DNA of 64,000 nucleotides, taken from NCBI GenBank assembly GCA_010094025.1, contig ML991872.1, positions 1-64,000 on the forward strand, given 5' to 3'. Positions 92 to 11,271 of the stretch are shown in pieces. Source of the DNA: Viridothelium virens (Eukaryota; Ascomycota; Dothideomycetes; Trypetheliales; Trypetheliaceae). The number at the start of each line of letters is the position of its first letter. Position 1 is the stretch's first letter. The position numbers and the translations under genes were made by a program. A model generated the notes under the pieces. That model worked only from the letters and a program-made list of their open reading frames with translations, did not search any database and had not been told where the DNA came from.

Positions 92-1627
92 TCATTTTCC
101 TACCTGGAACTTTGACAGCAATACTCTAGCAGCATCTTGGTAATGCTTGCCCATTCTCCATCCTAAGTCTGCAAGAGGCGTTTTGACCATGAACCTACTG
201 GCCCACTGCCGATCTACGAGATTTCCTTTCTTCTTTGCCGGTAGCAAGTCCGTAAGCACTTGCCATCTTCCTACCTCGCATAGCACTACCCCCAGACTGT
301 ACAAATCTAGCCTTTTCGTAAAGCCAACTAAAGTGTCAGGGTGATAGTAGTACTCGGAATCCGGAGACTTTTCCTCATCAAATTTGACGGATTCTCCGAT
401 TTGAAAGCGAGAATATTGGAATCCTTTTATGAATGGCTGCGATATCGAAACACCTGTGCCATCTGCCTTATGGAGAAAGAATATATTCTCGCTCCGGAAG
501 CCTTTGTGCAACCATCCGGCTGCATGAAAGAGAGAGAAAGCTGATATTAGCTTGTTGGCCAATTCAAAGCGGTCTCCCAAAAGTGGCGGGTTATTGCAAG
601 TCTCTCGTATCAGTTCTCGTAAGGACTTCGGCGGAAATTGGCGAAGGTCGTCTTCAAAATTCCCCGAAAACATGCCAAAAACATACCCAACTCGCTTCAG
701 TCGATGCGCAATTTCGAAGTCTAAGTCGTCGTAAACTCCGAAGCAAGGCATTATACATAATTTTGGCTGATTTACTGTCTGAAGCATCGCAGCGAGCGAG
801 TCCGTGCCCTCCCTTAAAGTACCATAATTTGCTAATCCAGGATCAAGTATCTTCCATTCGATCCATACTGAATGGCTGGTTCCTTTCTCATCGCAGTACA
901 ATCCCGTAGTCCAAGAATTCTCTGTAAGAGTAAGAGCATCTTTGGATACTTTTTTCATTTGCTTTGAGGCATCGCGATCTGCCTCGTTATGCATGATTTT
1001 GAGCTGTGCAGAAAGCGACAAGAGCCTTGAACTTTGAACCTTTGAGGTCTGAAGCATCTCCAGAAAATTATTCTTAGTGATTTTGGCAAGGGTATAGGAG
1101 GCAAGATTTGTCTCCAGAAGTTCTACATCTAGTGGCTTAAGAACATCATAAAGGTCGCAGTTCAGTTGCTTGAGCCTTGAAACGATTTCGGTAAATTTGT
1201 CTTTGCTCCTGATAGACCAAGTGACCCTCAAATGCGGCTTCTTCGTAAGGCGGAGATTGGTCAGGTCCTTTACCGTATCGCCTTCAGTGGAGACAGCCTT
1301 GCTAAGATCGCCCACAGATGGATCCAGCGGCTTCAGATCATATCGCTTGATATATGGATCGGCTTTTTAGTGAGTCTTTTGAATCTCCTCCAGGATTAAG
1401 GCAATAAGTTCTATCGTATCGCGTGGCTGATTGGCCAGGGTACAGTTCATTGGATCTGAGGTCTTGAAGAAGTCTCCCCAAAGGATGAGCTTATATTGCT
1501 CAATGTGGTATCTCAAAGCTAAATAGCTGGATCCGTTGTCGTTATCAAAGAAAGACTCGATGAGCAAGTAGCTGTCTACTGCCCCTTTGAAAGCCGCAAC
1601 AAGTGCAATGACAGAAAGAGCCTCCAT
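92..1627 (-). pseudogene. HeLo domain-pseudokinase protein (incompatibility/cell-death type), interrupted
   Basis: One reading frame runs from the ATG at 1627 to about 92 and is interrupted once, so the gene looks inactivated in this strain. The N-terminal ~200 residues look like a HeLo (HET-S/LopB, prion-inhibition) helical domain: the start MEALSVIALVAAFKGAVDSY and the later YDLKPLDPS segment fit that family. The C-terminal ~280 residues are kinase-like but appear catalytically dead. The HRD loop reads LHKGFRSEN with no catalytic Asp, the DFG position reads GFQ, and I see no glycine loop or VAIK lysine. The F-helix Asp (DLYSLGVVL) is kept. HeLo domains act at membranes in fungal incompatibility. 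The gene is divergent from an active-type kinase gene 373 bases away. The 3' end is uncertain because a possible GT donor lies just before the stop and an exon could continue beyond the window. Confidence 0.75.
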
Positions 1628-2000
1628 TCCTCACGAGTATTCAACGACACGATTGGAGTCGAGTTACTCCTTCGCGTTATAGAGACAGCGTGGACCCTGC
1701 GAGACTAGCTATGTGCGAGAAAGAACCCTTTCTAATCTTATTGTATGGAAACCTGAAAATATTGTTGCATCATCGCGAGAAAGTAATCCAACGCGTCTAA
1801 GGGCTGTGCCGGCTGGGCTGTGCTGGCTGGGCTGAAAGCGCACTTTTCTAGCGCACCAATGAGGCTGGGCTAATGATGCGCTCGAATTTTACGTCATATT
1901 TGAAGCCCACTGCTCTATTCCCTGAACAGTGAAACCTTATTCCCTAAGTGATTCAAGCCGTGCCTGATCATTTCTAGCGGAGGAAGGAACGTCGACCAAA
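1628..2000. promoter_or_regulatory. Shared divergent promoter region of the HeLo and kinase-ankyrin genes
   Basis: 373 bases lie between two genes transcribed in opposite directions, so both promoters must be here. The region contains a 14-base tandem repeat at 1801-1834. I see no other ORF. Its role as a promoter is inferred from position. Confidence 0.5.
1801..1834. repeat. 14-base tandem repeat, about 2.4 copies
   Basis: The unit GGGCTGTGCCGGCT is followed by GGGCTGTGCTGGCT (one C/T difference) and then GGGCTG. It lies in the middle of the shared promoter region. Confidence 0.85.
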
Positions 2001-5000
2001 ATGATGCAGCGATCCAAGCGACACGTCCAGATATCTACTTCCACTGAGCTTTCCGACGAGAGTGTTCAGCTTGGCATTGAGTCTTCAGCCGCCACTATAC
2101 AGGATGACGATCACAAATCAGATGTTTCTATCCTGGACATTTTGGACATTGCGGCCTCTGGCGATATTCCTCAAACAGACCTTAAAACAATTGGTACTCC
2201 AGTGGAGTCGTTCCCTGAGGGAGGGAAAGTCACTTATGCTCTTGGCACAGGATACACTGCATCAGTGGTCCGACATTCAGTGGACCAAGATATCCCTGGC
2301 ATGATATCCAACGGCTCAGTCGTTGCCTTGAAAATTTTCAACCAAAATACAGCACTCGACCCAAATCCGCATGAGGGTAGTGCTATGAATGAGACCTACT
2401 AAGCGATAGCTCGAGAGCTTACGGTTCTTTGCGACACAAAGCTATCTCGGCATCCGAACATTATTAGGATACTATTTCTTGGCTGGCAAAATGGAGCTCA
2501 CTCCCCTGCATTGGGTCTTGAACTTGCGTCTTTCGGATCTTTGGATTATATCTTACGTGCTCCAGGCTCTGGAATCTCCAAGAGACAGAAGATCACTCTC
2601 ATTATAGATATAGCTTCGGGTCTCGACGCGCTGCATAAGCATGAGGCGAAGTTAGCGCATGGAGATCTTAAACCTGCTAATGTCGTCGTATATAAGCATG
2701 CTGATGCCTCTCGGCAGATCATTGCTAAACTGGCTGATTTTGGAGCTATCTGCACGGCGAAAAGCGGGCATGGACCTCATCATACTACGCCATTGTGGTG
2801 TGCACCCGAAGTATTGAATAGAGATCCTGATATCGATTGGCAGAAGGCAGACCTCTACTCCTTCGGGCTAATAGTTGCAAGTATACTATCACGGCCGTCT
2901 GAGTTCCAGAAGTATGGCACGGTAAATTCCTGCATACTGTTGTCATACGACTCAATTATTCCAGAGAGTGTGCGGGATGATCGACTTTGCATTATGAAGG
3001 CTGTATCGCGTACACATCTTGAAAGCGCATTCAATCTCGCAACCAAACGACTCAACGAATACTTCAAAAGTTTTGGCGAAAGTGTGCTGAAACATACCCT
3101 AACCCGAAATCCTCTTCGGCGAACTATGATTTCGAAGCCTATGCTAGAGCACATGTCATCCCCAGACCTAGACAGGTGCGAGGATTTTAGATCAATCGTG
3201 CATCAGGACACAGATCCAGCATCGTGGTCTGAAGAAGAAGATAAGCCTACGTCTGGTAGATTCAAGGTATTTGGCGTTGCCTTAACCTAAGCTGCTTGCA
3301 ATTAAAATCCACTAGGTTTGGTCTGACTCGTTTCGACAAAGACCGCGAGGATTTCAAGAGTTCGTTTTTCAAGAGCTTCTAAAACTTACCGGAAACAGTA
3401 CGGGGCTCTCTTATATTGAAATTTCTGACATACCAGTCGAAATTGATGGAAATATTTCTACGGATGATTACCTTGGACTAATACGCTCCAAAGTCGCAGA
3501 GCTTGTACATGCACCTGCATGGCCGAAGGTCACGGCCGCCATCGATCGCACGGAACACGCTCGCATATCTTTCAACATCTCGATATGCTTTTTGCTTGGT
3601 CGAGGTGTTGCTCGTGACCTAAGATCCGCTCTTGCTTGGCTTTGTGTAGCTACGCTGGGCGGGTGATGTTGTTCATGAAGTAGATCCAATCAACATAGCC
3701 TCGGAGGTGGTGTTTACCACATCTCACGCGCGCTCGGATCCCTTCATGTAGATCCTTACGCCCTGTAGTTATTAGTTCATTTCCCTTCGCCCTCACCTAG
3801 ATAGGGAGGTCTATATAGCAGCCTGCACCTCGGGCGACCTAGATAGGTCAATTGAGTTCTTTCCTCCGATTCAGTTGTTTGTTACAACATCAGCGGGCAC
3901 ACTGCAGCCACCGATATTCTCCCATTGCTGTGCAAGTCTGCTCATAGCATATGCCCAGATCCGTTTCCAACACGACTTTTCCTATGCCTAGCGTGTCTGT
4001 CAAGAAACGTGGAAGCCTTAGAGATACTAGCTACGGATTGGCCTACTCATTATGATGTTATCATTCGCACCATCAGACAAAGGCGCGTGGATCCCATCTT
4101 TGCGCAACTCCAGTCGGAAGACCCGTCTCCTTCAGCTATCTAAGAGCGCTATATCGAACGAAAAGCGGGAGCCCCTGACAATCTCAGTCTTTTGGAAAGC
4201 ATCAAATCATACAATCTTCACTATGCTGCCAGTATTCTTGGAACTAACGTGAATGCTGGAGAGATAGACCTGTCAGGAGTTGGTGTAATGCATGCGCTTT
4301 GCTACCTAAGAGACTCAGATGCCGCTAAAATTGCAGCACTCTGTGATCAGAAAGGGATGTCTCTGAATTCTACTGCCTCTCTAGGCTCTATCATTTGCTT
4401 ACCTGGGATTAAGGATACTTTCAGAGGCTCCCCTGTGGCATGTGCTGCTTTGCACGGCAGATCCATGCTTCTGGAGGCGCTACTAAAGCTCCATTCCCAA
4501 CGTGATGCTCCGATTCTAGATTATTATGAAGCATTGCTCTTGGCCGTTACACACTGCCATGAAAAGCTTGCCCGTCAACTGCTCGATTTCAAGCAACGGC
4601 ATTCCTCACTATGTCTCCAATCTGATAGCTTCCCTACGGAAATGCTGAGTCCAACTTCTATGTTGAATTCCATGATGAATAATATTGATATTTCTGGATT
4701 CGACGTGCTATCTCTAAAAAGGCGCGCGTACCATGGTGATCGGTATGACGACGCTTACGCTAAGACTATGCGAATTTTGCTTGAGGAAGGTGCGATTATA
4801 ACAGCAGATTCTTGAAGAATACCCAGACCTAGTTGACGCGGCCAACGGAGGCAATCTTACACCACTGCATATTGCCACATATTCTTCGAAAGACACACAA
4901 CTTATCAAAACACTCTTGGATCGAGGAGCAAACCCAATGACGGAAAGCGCTGACCGTCTGACACCATTATCAAGGGCACTAAGAAGCCAGAACACAATGG

Positions 5001-6091
5001 CCGCCAATCTAATTTACGAAGCTTGTACTCCCGATCAAAGGCAAGTCCTCTGCAGTCGTGACTCCAAGTCTGGGAACAATCTCTTCCTTCGGCTTACGGA
5101 TCAGTGGCTGAAGCACCGAGATCGAAATTTGATCGAAAGCTTCCAGTGGATTGTTGACCGCGGCGGTGCACACTTCTATGGCCGTGTCGTTGAAACGAGC
5201 ACGGTCAAAGAACCCAGCTGGAGGGATCGACCTCTTTGGCATGCAATTTTGACCAGATTGCGCCCCCCTGACAGATCTGAAATGCTGCTTGACACAGTCT
5301 TAGCGGAATTCTTCTTCAAAATCTTCCCTGACAAGATCAACGCGCTGGAGACAGATGGTCGTGGACCACTACACATCGCTACATGTTATGGACATGTGGA
5401 GATAGTCAGAGCGCTCCTCAAAAAGGGCGCAAATGTGAATCTTGAAGTGGGCAAATGTATATACGTGGATACCGTGGACGATCAAGTGCTGGGGAAGACA
5501 GCAATGGACTTGGCTATCTCAAGGTCCAGGGCCGCAGAGCTGCCAGAAGAATTGAAGGCCGGTGTACACGAAGAAATAAGCCGATGGAATAATGATATGC
5601 AAGCAATCAAACAAATGCTGCTCGAGAATGGCGGAGAATCTGGGAAAGGAGCCTCACAGCACGAGCAATATGGCTATCTTGCCCTCCGATTTCCTAGCTT
5701 TGTATCCACTTCCAGCCTAAACATGCCAGAACCATTTGAGTACGACAAGATTTGGGTTGGAGACTGGCCTGAAACGCTCCCAAGAGACGCTTCAAGCTTA
5801 CAAGAACCAGAACTCACGGAATTCAATCAGCAGAATGAGCTTGAGAGAATTTTGAGTCCGGCATGCTTTAGTTCGCCCAAGTGGCTTCAATCGAGAGGGG
5901 TCCAGGTCAATGCTCAAGAGAAAGAGAGTATAAAGAATGCAGCACAGTTGCTACGAAAAAGCTGGCGTCTCCCCCCAGGCTGGGAAGCGCGGCAGTCAGA
6001 AAATGGACTCTTCTATTTTGTAGACCATAACAGAAAGACTACGACTTGGGAGAAGCCCCAGGTAGCAAAATGGGATGAGAAGGATGAATGA
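2001..6091 (+). pseudogene. Protein kinase-ankyrin repeat-WW domain protein, disrupted by a solo LTR and other lesions
   Basis: The start is the ATGATG at 2001. The kinase domain has a glycine loop (LGTGYTASV), the VALK lysine, the alpha-C Glu (ARELTVL), HGDLKPANV with the catalytic Asp, ADFGA and CAPEV, so every catalytic motif is present. A 49-base intron (3267-3315) keeps the frame. Ankyrin-type repeats follow, for example GPLHIATCYGHVEIVRALL near 5365-5420. The protein ends in a WW domain (LPPGWEA..., GLFYFVDHNRKTTTWEKP) at about 5970-6060. Damage: an in-frame TAA at 2400-2402 before the kinase alpha-C helix, a solo LTR at 3664-3892, an in-frame TAA at 4141-4143, and a one-base frame change near 4800-4815. 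Protein similarity continues in frame across these points, so this was one gene. It is not expressed as a full protein unless the reference base calls are wrong. Confidence 0.75.
3664..3892. mobile_element. Solo LTR, copy 1 (probably Copia-type), in the kinase-ankyrin gene
   Basis: The 229-base element starts TGATGTTGT and ends ACAACATCA (matching inverted ends, TG...CA). It is flanked by a 5-base target duplication GCGGG at 3659-3663 and 3893-3897. A copy at 6654-6882 differs by one C/T. No internal coding region is present, as expected after LTR-LTR recombination. Near identity of the copies suggests recent activity of the family. The orientation and the Copia assignment are tentative. Confidence 0.9.
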
Positions 6092-6490: not shown

Positions 6491-8301
6491 ATGCCCTCGA
6501 TATCCAGCCTACTCATCCTACCGTGCTGTATCGCTGTGGTAATCGGTCTACGTAGGGCGTGGGTATCATTCAACAACGGACGACTCGCCCGTCAACATGG
6601 ATGCGGTCGGCCTTCGAGATATCCTCACAAAGATCCTTTTGGGCTTGACCTATTGATGTTGTTCATGAAGTAGATCCAATCAACATAGCCTCGGAGGTGG
6701 TGTTTACCACATCTCACGCGCGCTCGGATCCCTTCATGTAGATCCTTACGCCCTGTAGTTATTAGTTCATTTTCCTTCGCCCTCACCTAGATAGGGAGGT
6801 CTATATAGCAGCCTGCACCTCGGGCGACCTAGATAGGTCAATTGAGTTCTTTCCTCCGATTCAGTTGTTTGTTACAACATCACCTATTCTTCCAGGCCGG
6901 CAAACAGATGAAACAGCAGACGCGTCTCAAAGGCATTAGGGACCTCTACGAAACCTACGGCGATACTTTCGAGACCAACTCCTTTGGTTCCACGATAATC
7001 AACACCATCGACCCTGCTAACATCCAAACGTTCCTCTCCCTCGAGTTCTCTAGATATGTACTTGAACCAATTCGATTCCCAGTCGCTTCGCCTATCATGG
7101 GTCACAGTATATTTACTACCGATGGCCATCTCTGGGAGAAGGCCCGCAGCGAGATCAAACCGGTATTTGCACGTGGTGAGATATCAAATATGGCCAGCCT
7201 TGAGTGGCATTTGGACAAGATGATAAAGAGATTACCCTTGGATGGATCGTTATTTGATATTGCACCTTTTGTGGACAATTTATATCTGGCCGACTCACTG
7301 GACTATCTATTTGCCCAGTCCATCATATTCCCGAAAACGGACCTCTCATCGCTGAATGTCCGCTTTTTGAAGTGTTTCCGAGCAAGTACTGCAGGAGCAG
7401 GAAGGCGTCATTTCTTCGGTAGGCTCAGATACGTCATCCCGGATCTGCCATTCAGGCAAGCATGCAAGGAGCTTCACGAGTTTGCAGATATGCATATCAA
7501 TGCGGCTTTGGGGTATCTACATCAGGATTCGGACAGTTCTGCGGAATTGAAGACAGGGCGCTCCGCATTTCTGCTAGATCTTGCAAGGCAGACACAAGAT
7601 AAGAGATATCTCAGGAACCAGCTGCTTGCGGTCTTCATGGCCGGCCATGACTCCATTGCCGTCCTGGTTGAAGATGCCATCTACGAGCTAGCTCGGCATC
7701 CCGAGGTATGGAGCCGGGCAAGAGCGGAAGCCTTGGCCCTCGCCGGGAAACCGTTGACCTTTGAGTCTGTTAGGTCGCAACAGTATCTATATCAAATCAT
7801 CAAGGAAGGTTCGTCTTACGCTAGTTTCTCTTCGACGGTCAACCGTTGATCGAATCTAGATCTCTGTTAACATCTCCGAACTTAGTCTTACGCTTACATC
7901 CACTGTCACCAACCTCGTCACGCATCGCTGTTGAGCCTACGATACTTCCGCGCGGCGGTAAAGGCAATAGACCTCTCTTAGTCCCCGCCGGAGCAACTGT
8001 CATGGTACACCGGCAACCGCTTCACGTAAATAAAGAGCGATACGGCGAAGATGCAGACGAATTCCGCCCGCAGCGGTGGCAGAAGCTCAAGCAAGGTTGG
8101 CATTACATGCCATTCTCCGGCGGACCCAGAACATGTCCTGCGCAGGCTATGGCAATGGCCGAGGCGGCAGCGGTACTGACGAGATTATTGCAAGAAGTGG
8201 AAAAGATAAAGGGAGAGGGCGAATGGAAAGAAGGATGGGGCCTCGTTGTCCGCAACGTCGCTGGTGTTTGGGTTCGATTGACACCGTCGCAGGAGTACTA
8301 G
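6491..8301 (+). pseudogene. Cytochrome P450 monooxygenase (CYP52-like), interrupted by a solo LTR
   Basis: Exon sequence starts at 6491 with an N-terminal membrane anchor (SSLLILPCCIAVVIGL). It is cut by the solo LTR at 6654-6882, just after HKDPFGLDL, and resumes with LFFQAGK. An intron at 7809-7885 follows, and exon sequence continues 7886-8301. P450 hallmarks are present: an I-helix AGHDS, an ExxR motif completed across the intron (E-V-L-R), and the heme-binding loop FSGGPRTCPAQ with the ligand Cys. The usual Gly after the Cys is replaced (CPAQ for CxGQ). Apart from the LTR I see no break, so inactivation looks recent. CYP52-like enzymes hydroxylate alkanes and fatty acids at the ER, but the substrate here cannot be told. 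Confidence 0.85.
6654..6882. mobile_element. Solo LTR, copy 2 (probably Copia-type), in the P450 gene
   Basis: This 229-base element is identical to copy 1 at 3664-3892 except for one C/T difference. It has the same TGATGTTGT...ACAACATCA ends and its own 5-base target duplication CCTAT at 6649-6653 and 6883-6887. The different duplications show two independent insertions rather than a segmental duplication. It looks recent. Orientation is uncertain. Confidence 0.92.
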
Positions 8302-8920: not shown

Positions 8921-11271
8921 ATGGACGAACCAAGTCAAAGCAAGACTAACCCATCGTCTTTGCGATTCAAAAAGAAGATCCCGCAGGAAAAATTTCGACT
9001 CGTTTATGAAAAATTTTTCAGCCGAATCACATTGAGAGGTTTCACCGATGGGAAAGGCTGGCGTCTCGGTATTCTGGCTGGATTCTGGACATCTCTTGTC
9101 GTTCTCCTCGGAAACCTGATTATTCTCCTGCTTGGAGCAGTTCAAAATGGAGGATATGTTGAAGGTATCGGTATCCTTAACTTCGGAGAGCACAACAAGA
9201 TGGCCACCATCAGTACTGCATACCATATCCTTATAAACATCCTCAGCACTGCGTTGCTCACTTCAAGCAATTTTTGCATGCAGATACTATGCTCTCCAAC
9301 AAGAGAAGAAGTCGATTATGCAAATGGTAAGGATAAATGGGTCTATATTGGCATATTAAGTCCCAGCAACTTGCGGTATATTAGCAAGAAAAGGCAAACC
9401 ATGTGGTGGCTCCTCGCATTAAGCTCCCTGCCGCTACATCTTATGTGCGTCTCACGATCTCACAAGCTTTACTGCAGGCTCCGTGACGCTGATACATATT
9501 TACAGATACAATTCATCCATATTCGAGGTTACTTTAGGGCAAGAATACGATGTGACGATTGCCAACGGATCAGACACAAATACTATTAACCAACTGGCCT
9601 CGGGAAACATGAAAAATCTAACTAATTCCGAGTGGACACAACTTTATGATACTCAGTATGTCCCAAATGGCGGGGATCTTATCCTCGTTGCCGATTACTT
9701 CTGGTTTGACGCCACGGTTCAGCAGGATATTGGAGCGGCCTCCGGCAACTGGATGCCGTCACCACCTCAAATTGGTGATGGTCCTATCTCGAACCTGAAT
9801 GTCATTAGTATCGGACAGATGAACGGAACTGTTCAAGGAGTCTCTCAACCGATCCAAGCTTCCGTGGAATTCTTATTCAATGCGGATGGTACATTCGCCA
9901 TTAACCTCACTCAGGCACAATACCGCCTGCTCGCCGATTTGACAGTCCGTCCCGACAGGAACAACAATGAGACTGCAGTTTCCTACAACTTCAATATCCC
10001 TACGACCACTCATATTTCTCCTGCGAACGCCTCGTCGATTTTCAATATTGTGAGATTCATCAACAGGGAGACAAGCACGAGTTGGTGGTTGGAAAGCCCA
10101 GCCGTCACCATAAGCTACGGCCTGAGCCAGCAAATCAATGATGGCTCCCAGATTCAAATCAGCCGCACATTTATCCTTGTCGTTATTGGTTGCAATATTG
10201 TGAAAGTCGTCGTCATCTATCTAACATTAAGGCTGACTTCGAGGACATCCTTCCGACCCCTTATCACCGTCGGCGACGCTGTTGCTTCCTACCTTGAACA
10301 TTCTGACCAAAGAACAGCGGGGGCTTGCCTGCATGATAAGGAATGGCTCTCAAGTACGAGATCTAAAGATTCTCTGCGATCGCCAAGAAGGTGGGAGCCA
10401 CGAGTCCGTCTTCTAGGAAGCGCAGCAGTGGGAAATAGATTTCTCGTAGCTATAGGCATTATAATGTACGCCTAAGCACTCTTCCCCCATATTGATCTAT
10501 TTGGCTGATTAATTTAGCGCTGTATGCATTGGACTTTCCATATTAGCCCTCGCTATTGCCTTCCCGAACTCACATTCGGATGTTAATGCTCAAGAAGGTC
10601 TGATATGGGGATCTGGCTCACAGCGCCATTTGAGTTTTGCCAAGAGCTCTTTCAACACCGCGGGCGTTCTATTCAATGCCTGGCTTGCTAACGCCCCCCA
10701 ACTCCTGCTTTCCATGTCCTACATGGTGACCAACAGTCTCTGCACCTCTATGTCGGTTGCGCTCGAATGGGACCGGTATGCTTCGCAGCGTAAAGGGCTC
10801 CGTGTCACCGATCCCGTGGGGAAACAACGCGGAACCTATTTCCTCCAGCTGCCTTACAGGCGTGCTGTTCCCCTCGTTGTAACTTCTGGCCTCTTGCATT
10901 GGCTCTTATCTCAAACGTTGTTCTTGGTCAGGCTGGATATCCGAGATCGTGCTGGCAACGTCATCACTTCCGAATCCAAGAGCACATGTGGCTATTCGCT
11001 TTTGAGTTTAGTGATCTTCATAGCTGTCTTCTTGTCATTGCAGCTCGTCGTTCTCACATTCATGCTCTGGCGCATAAAACCGAGGATGCCTGTTGCCGCC
11101 TGCTGCAGTCTGATTATCAGTGCTGCGTGCCATCCGCCGGACAGCGAGCTTGACCCTCATCTGCAACCCGTACAGTGGGGTGTTGTTCCCGCAGCTTTTG
11201 GCACTATAGGGCACTGTACTTTTAGTAGTGAGCCAGTGATGCCAGTGAGATCGGGATGTGAATATGCCTAA
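8921..11271 (+). CDS. DUF6536 multi-pass membrane protein
   Basis: Three exons (8921-9444, 9506-10465, 10518-11271), with introns of 61 and 52 bases, give 745 aa. The N-terminal region carries the fungal DUF6536 signature: GWRLGILAGFWTSL, then NILSTALLTSSNFCMQ and LCSPTREEVD, then RQTMWWLLALSSLPLHL. The first intron joins LPLHL to IYNSSIFEVTLG without loss. A large, probably extracytoplasmic loop follows, with NGSD, NLTNSE and NGT sites. About five further hydrophobic helices run to the C-terminus (for example TFILVVIGCNIVKVVVIYL and NAWLANAPQLLLSMSYMV). The family is widespread in Pezizomycotina and of unknown function. The gene looks intact. The last ~70 residues are little conserved in appearance. 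Confidence 0.88.

Follow-up and report, generated by a model that had tools for sequence, protein, structure and literature searches.

A divergent HeLo-pseudokinase and kinase-ankyrin-WW gene pair, very probably pseudogenised, in the ascomycete Viridothelium virens

The stretch of DNA analysed here, referred to as the window, comprises the first 64,000 nucleotides of contig ML991872.1 of the Viridothelium virens genome (assembly GCA_010094025.1). Its left end carries two head-to-head coding regions, whose ATG codons stand at 1627 on the minus strand and 2001 on the plus strand; this confirms the 373-base gap between divergent genes reported in the initial annotation. The gene on the minus strand (hereafter the minus gene) joins a HeLo domain to a putative pseudokinase region, and the gene on the plus strand (the plus gene) combines a protein kinase domain with ankyrin repeats and a WW domain. 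We consider it very probable that these divergently transcribed neighbours belong to known fungal gene families and that both have become pseudogenes in this genome. The view of the locus as two working genes was not confirmed, as the minus gene contains one in-frame stop (1369-1367) and the plus gene contains two (2400 and 4141), together with an insertion and a change of reading frame. The frames followed through the two genes contain one stop in the minus gene and two in the plus gene, versus approximately 27 and, with the inserted element resembling a long terminal repeat (LTR) left out, 66 in shuffled sequence. Because these numbers are far lower than those of shuffled sequence, the frames of both genes are not due to chance.

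Domains and interruptions of the two genes

The N-terminal domain of the minus gene had been proposed to be of HeLo type, and the idea of a module was said to fail if it did not align with HeLo/HELL profiles. It does align with the HeLo profile PF14479, the part upstream of the stop being above the cutoff of the family (Table 1). The piece 3′ of the stop matches the later part of the same profile at 18.4 bits, below the cutoff of 23.2. Replacement of the stop by a placeholder residue brings the score to 61.1 bits over profile positions 3-180, whereas removal of the shorter candidate intron over the stop gives 43.4 bits in two stretches; the stop therefore most likely sits inside a conserved HeLo domain. 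Splicing over this stop was rejected as an explanation: with lengths of 35-200 nts, there are just two open GT-AG routes, both using the donor GTACCC and both without a CT[AG]A[CT] motif, the shorter being the one that worsens the HeLo score and the longer running from 1443 to 1282. The open reading frame (ORF) initially taken as the minus gene (92..1315) starts at a GTG downstream of the stop that splits the HeLo domain. The N-terminus of the HeLo-pseudokinase is hydrophobic, with a mean Kyte-Doolittle value of up to 1.70 over 19 residues, as expected for a membrane helix.

The C-terminal region of the minus gene is described as kinase-like from a borderline DUF7580 match and from alignments with kinases in the PDB, the best of which has an E-value of 0.014; its assignment as a kinase is weak. 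At the HRD site, HKG (508-500, minus strand) is found in four of four printed kinase alignments. At the DFG site, near 430-416 on the same strand, none of the four places an aspartate, with a register that depends on the alignment: the residues at this site are GFQ with MSK1, IKG with CDKL5 and SIS with two LIMK1 chains. The kinase-like part is thus devoid of the catalytic aspartates of both motifs. The claim of a kinase-like domain that lost HRD and DFG stands for the two motifs, and less firmly for the domain itself. The GFQ reading of the DFG site, which resembles that of MLKL, is given by one of the four printed alignments and was dropped as evidence of kinship.

The plus gene was searched against Pfam as six separate pieces. 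Matches to Pkinase, Ank and WW agree with the architecture described in the initial annotation. However, the kinase, which had been called active, has no uninterrupted frame, and its catalytic loop reads HGD rather than HRD; the DFG motif is present. The stop at 2400 cuts off the catalytic lysine motif VALK from the HGD and ADFGA motifs downstream. Because the Pkinase match after this stop starts at profile position 45 of 263, the first part of the kinase domain lies upstream of it; the piece before the stop gave no kinase match of its own in Pfam. The remaining four of the six pieces gave nothing above the Pfam cutoff, the nearest match being Ank_2 for 4144-4812 (E 0.023). At the locus, the NCBIfam matches were all far below cutoff.

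Splicing was also considered for the two stops of the plus gene. No frame-keeping intron of 35-200 nts with a GT[AG]NG donor and a branch motif spans the stop at 2400 or the stop at 4141. A looser search (40-150 nts) gave eight and nine open routes, respectively, none of them with a GT[AG]NG donor.

Insertions and neighbouring genes

The frame of the plus gene is open on either side of a 229-bp insertion. A near-identical copy of this insertion lies approximately 3 kb away at the start of the neighbouring cytochrome P450 gene, and each copy carries its own 5-bp target duplication. With their TG...CA ends and differing target duplications, the copies at 3664-3892 and 6654-6882 carry the signs of two independent insertion events, solo LTRs being the simplest identification and a small non-autonomous DNA element with inverted termini the alternative. 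No full LTR retrotransposon was found within the window. The P450 match starts, at profile position 7 of 462, where the second copy ends, and directly before this copy comes an open stretch, from 6491, whose start is hydrophobic; the second copy therefore probably interrupts the P450 gene.

Further along the plus strand, the frame of a DUF6536 gene (8921-11271) shifts at a point (about 9447-9505) that can be read as an intron of ordinary appearance, GTGCGT...TACAG. Between 6842 and 63171, 20 ORFs were submitted to Pfam, and 14 of them had a family match with an E-value of 0.001 or less, including CorA, ATP synthase gamma, topoisomerase I, Tel2, a ThiF/E2-binding protein, MFS, RRN3 and a fungal PH protein. 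The Pfam matches of the window include the fungal transcription factor domain, the fungal PH domain and HeLo, and mark it as fungal DNA.

Table 1. Coordinates of the divergent gene pair, its interruptions and the adjacent P450 gene
Feature	Position	Strand	Evidence or detail
HeLo-pseudokinase gene, disrupted	92..1627	-	511 codons including one in-frame stop, then end stop
Pseudokinase region, borderline DUF7580 (PF24476)	95..871	-	27.6 bits, cutoff 27; kinase alignments
In-frame stop, most likely within HeLo domain	1367..1369	-	Reading of frame
First part of HeLo domain	1370..1627	-	PF14479 profile positions 3-85, E 1.3e-8, 35.4 bits, cutoff 23.2
Region between ATGs of the two divergent genes	1628..2000		373 bases
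Kinase-ankyrin-WW gene, disrupted	2001..6091	+	Profile matches, stops, insertion, frame change
In-frame stop in kinase N-lobe, after VALK motif (2322)	2400..2402	+	Reading of frame
Remainder of kinase domain, HGD at 2658, ADFGA at 2733	2403..3266	+	PF00069 E 1.9e-21
Probable ordinary intron, 49 nt	3267..3315	+	GTATTT...CTAG, inferred from sequence
Solo-LTR-like insertion, 229 bp	3664..3892		TG...CA, 9 inverted terminal bases, 5-bp duplication GCGGG
In-frame stop	4141..4143	+	Reading of frame
Reading-frame change near 4800	4790..4815	+	Unusual intron such as 4790-4850 possible
Ankyrin repeats and C-terminal WW domain	4802..6088	+	Ank E 5.4e-16, WW E 2.9e-11
Cytochrome P450 gene (PF00067)	6491-8298	+	Pfam match; second insertion at start
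Second insertion copy at P450 gene start	6654..6882		1 difference in 229, target duplication CCTAT

Pseudogenisation and the significance of the pairing

HeLo domains are described in the literature as pore-forming cell-death domains. By analogy with this family, it is reasonably likely that the minus gene had an ancestral role as a HeLo executor of cell death. In its intact form, it would have encoded a HeLo-pseudokinase in which the kinase-like part may have kept the HeLo bundle inactive, until a signal let the hydrophobic helix at the N-terminus enter the membrane and kill the cell. The intact plus gene would have encoded a kinase-ankyrin-WW protein that probably bound a partner through its ankyrin and WW parts. 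That the neighbouring kinase might have released the HeLo bundle is a guess.

Several observations weigh against the reading of the locus as two pseudogenes of these families. A single sequence of the locus was analysed, and lone stops could be assembly errors. On the side of the minus gene, PF24476 exceeded its cutoff of 27 in one of four queries, with 27.6 bits for a trimmed C-terminal piece, 26.2 for 95-1366, 25.8 for the whole protein and 25.8 for the remaining query. Pkinase was below its cutoff of 31.7 in every query, at 13.9-14.8 bits (14.1 for the piece after the stop). In addition, none of the solved HeLo structures matched the 86-residue N-terminal piece at E up to 1, a search that returned two weak ubiquitin matches only. 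On the side of the plus gene, the segments around the insertion (3316-3663 and 3895-4140) have no Pfam match above cutoff, and their coding nature is read from the open frames. The frame change near 4800 is the least certain of the lesions, as a poor-looking intron could cover it.

There is about an even chance that the two genes are unrelated neighbours, brought together by the chance adjacency of changeable fungal gene families and decaying in an insertion-prone region, an explanation that is compatible with their pseudogenisation. The next gene, encoding the P450, was struck by another copy of this element, and the insertions are therefore not specific to the gene pair. Moreover, the HeLo-type gene pairs of published systems involve NOD-like receptor (NLR) genes in the papers considered, and neither NACHT, NB-ARC nor any other NLR nucleotide-binding domain was matched by Pfam in any of the six plus-gene pieces. 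On the other hand, the head-to-head layout with a short common upstream region would fit co-regulation, and the damage to both genes is what would be expected under mutual dependence.

That the genes are intact, and their interruptions due to errors of assembly or base calling, appears very unlikely, even though the lesions are few across approximately 1,780 otherwise well-kept codons. The long flanking genes have clean ORFs, RRN3 with 773 codons (profile positions 6-557 of 558) and MFS with 538 codons (3-345 of 347), which makes a general sequencing error unlikely. However, these controls were chosen from the ORF list and are biased to open frames, a further point to set against pseudogenisation. 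Independently of them, the 229-bp insertion is no base-calling error, since it has a target duplication and occurs twice, each time with a different one. Repeat-induced point mutation was considered and set aside, as two dinucleotide ratios in the region of 1-6 kb fall inside the spread seen elsewhere in the window.

Pseudogenisation of both genes remains the preferred reading. A link from the kinase of one gene to the pseudokinase of the other is improbable. It is less probable still that intact pairs elsewhere in fungi form a necroptosis-like phosphorylation switch, as opposed to amyloid templating, both halves of which were lost together from this genome. If intact homologues were found to travel together, they could represent the fungal equivalent of the step between RIPK3 and MLKL, operating without NLR or amyloid. 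A working MLKL/RIPK3-like two-gene module at this locus, in which the kinase-ankyrin-WW protein would sense a partner and then phosphorylate the HeLo-pseudokinase, as the initial annotation had suggested for an active kinase, is highly improbable, as both genes are interrupted, with two stops, one insertion and a change of frame in the kinase gene, and no MLKL chain was among the 40 PDB sequences matching the pseudokinase at E up to 10, in a single-sequence search that a distant link could escape. As it stands, the locus provides an example of the decay of cell-death-type genes, with a neighbouring gene struck by the same mobile element.

Comparison with known systems

The arrangement recalls the HET-S/NWD2 and HELLP/PNT1 systems, in which a HeLo or HeLo-like protein also adjoins a second signalling gene. 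The difference is that the second gene here encodes a kinase domain, and Pfam matched no NLR nucleotide-binding domain in it. The combination of a HeLo-pseudokinase with a kinase-ankyrin-WW gene is unnamed among the open-access literature matches listed. Peptides of the locus were used to scan viral and prokaryotic contigs. None of the three viral scans returned a locus, with short peptides from one sequence that find close relatives only. One of the two prokaryotic scans gave a locus (L001), which matches an ankyrin stretch at 33% identity and nothing else; ankyrin repeats are widespread.

Similar to RIPK kinases, the plus gene joins a protein kinase domain to protein-binding parts. RHIM and death domains are features of RIPK kinases, whereas the plus gene has ankyrin repeats and a WW domain and no death domain was matched in Pfam. 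The best PDB matches of its kinase are LRRK2, roco4 and CTR1, and RIPK is absent from the best 60 of 517 matches.

The minus gene resembles MLKL of animals and plants in its order of a helical domain followed by a pseudokinase, and in the loss of both catalytic aspartates. According to PMC5104457, MLKL carries HGK at the HRD site and GFE at the DFG site. The minus gene has HKG and, in the best of several alignments, GFQ, with an unstable register for the latter. The losses of catalytic residues are thus common to MLKL and the minus gene, and kinship with MLKL stays putative. Single-sequence structure models, with a mean predicted local distance difference test (pLDDT) of 32.1 and 30.9 and residues at or above 50 numbering 0 of 511 and 0 of 259, were unusable for comparison.

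The nearest parallel comes from fungi themselves. Section 20 of PMC12881547 describes some fungal HELL domains joined to a kinase or pseudokinase domain and calls them reminiscent of MLKL. Like the minus gene, the proteins described there combine an executor-type helical N-terminus with a kinase-like C-terminus. They differ in that the minus gene matches the HeLo profile PF14479 and, in this copy, carries a stop in the domain. The predicted architecture of the minus gene is close to one already in print.
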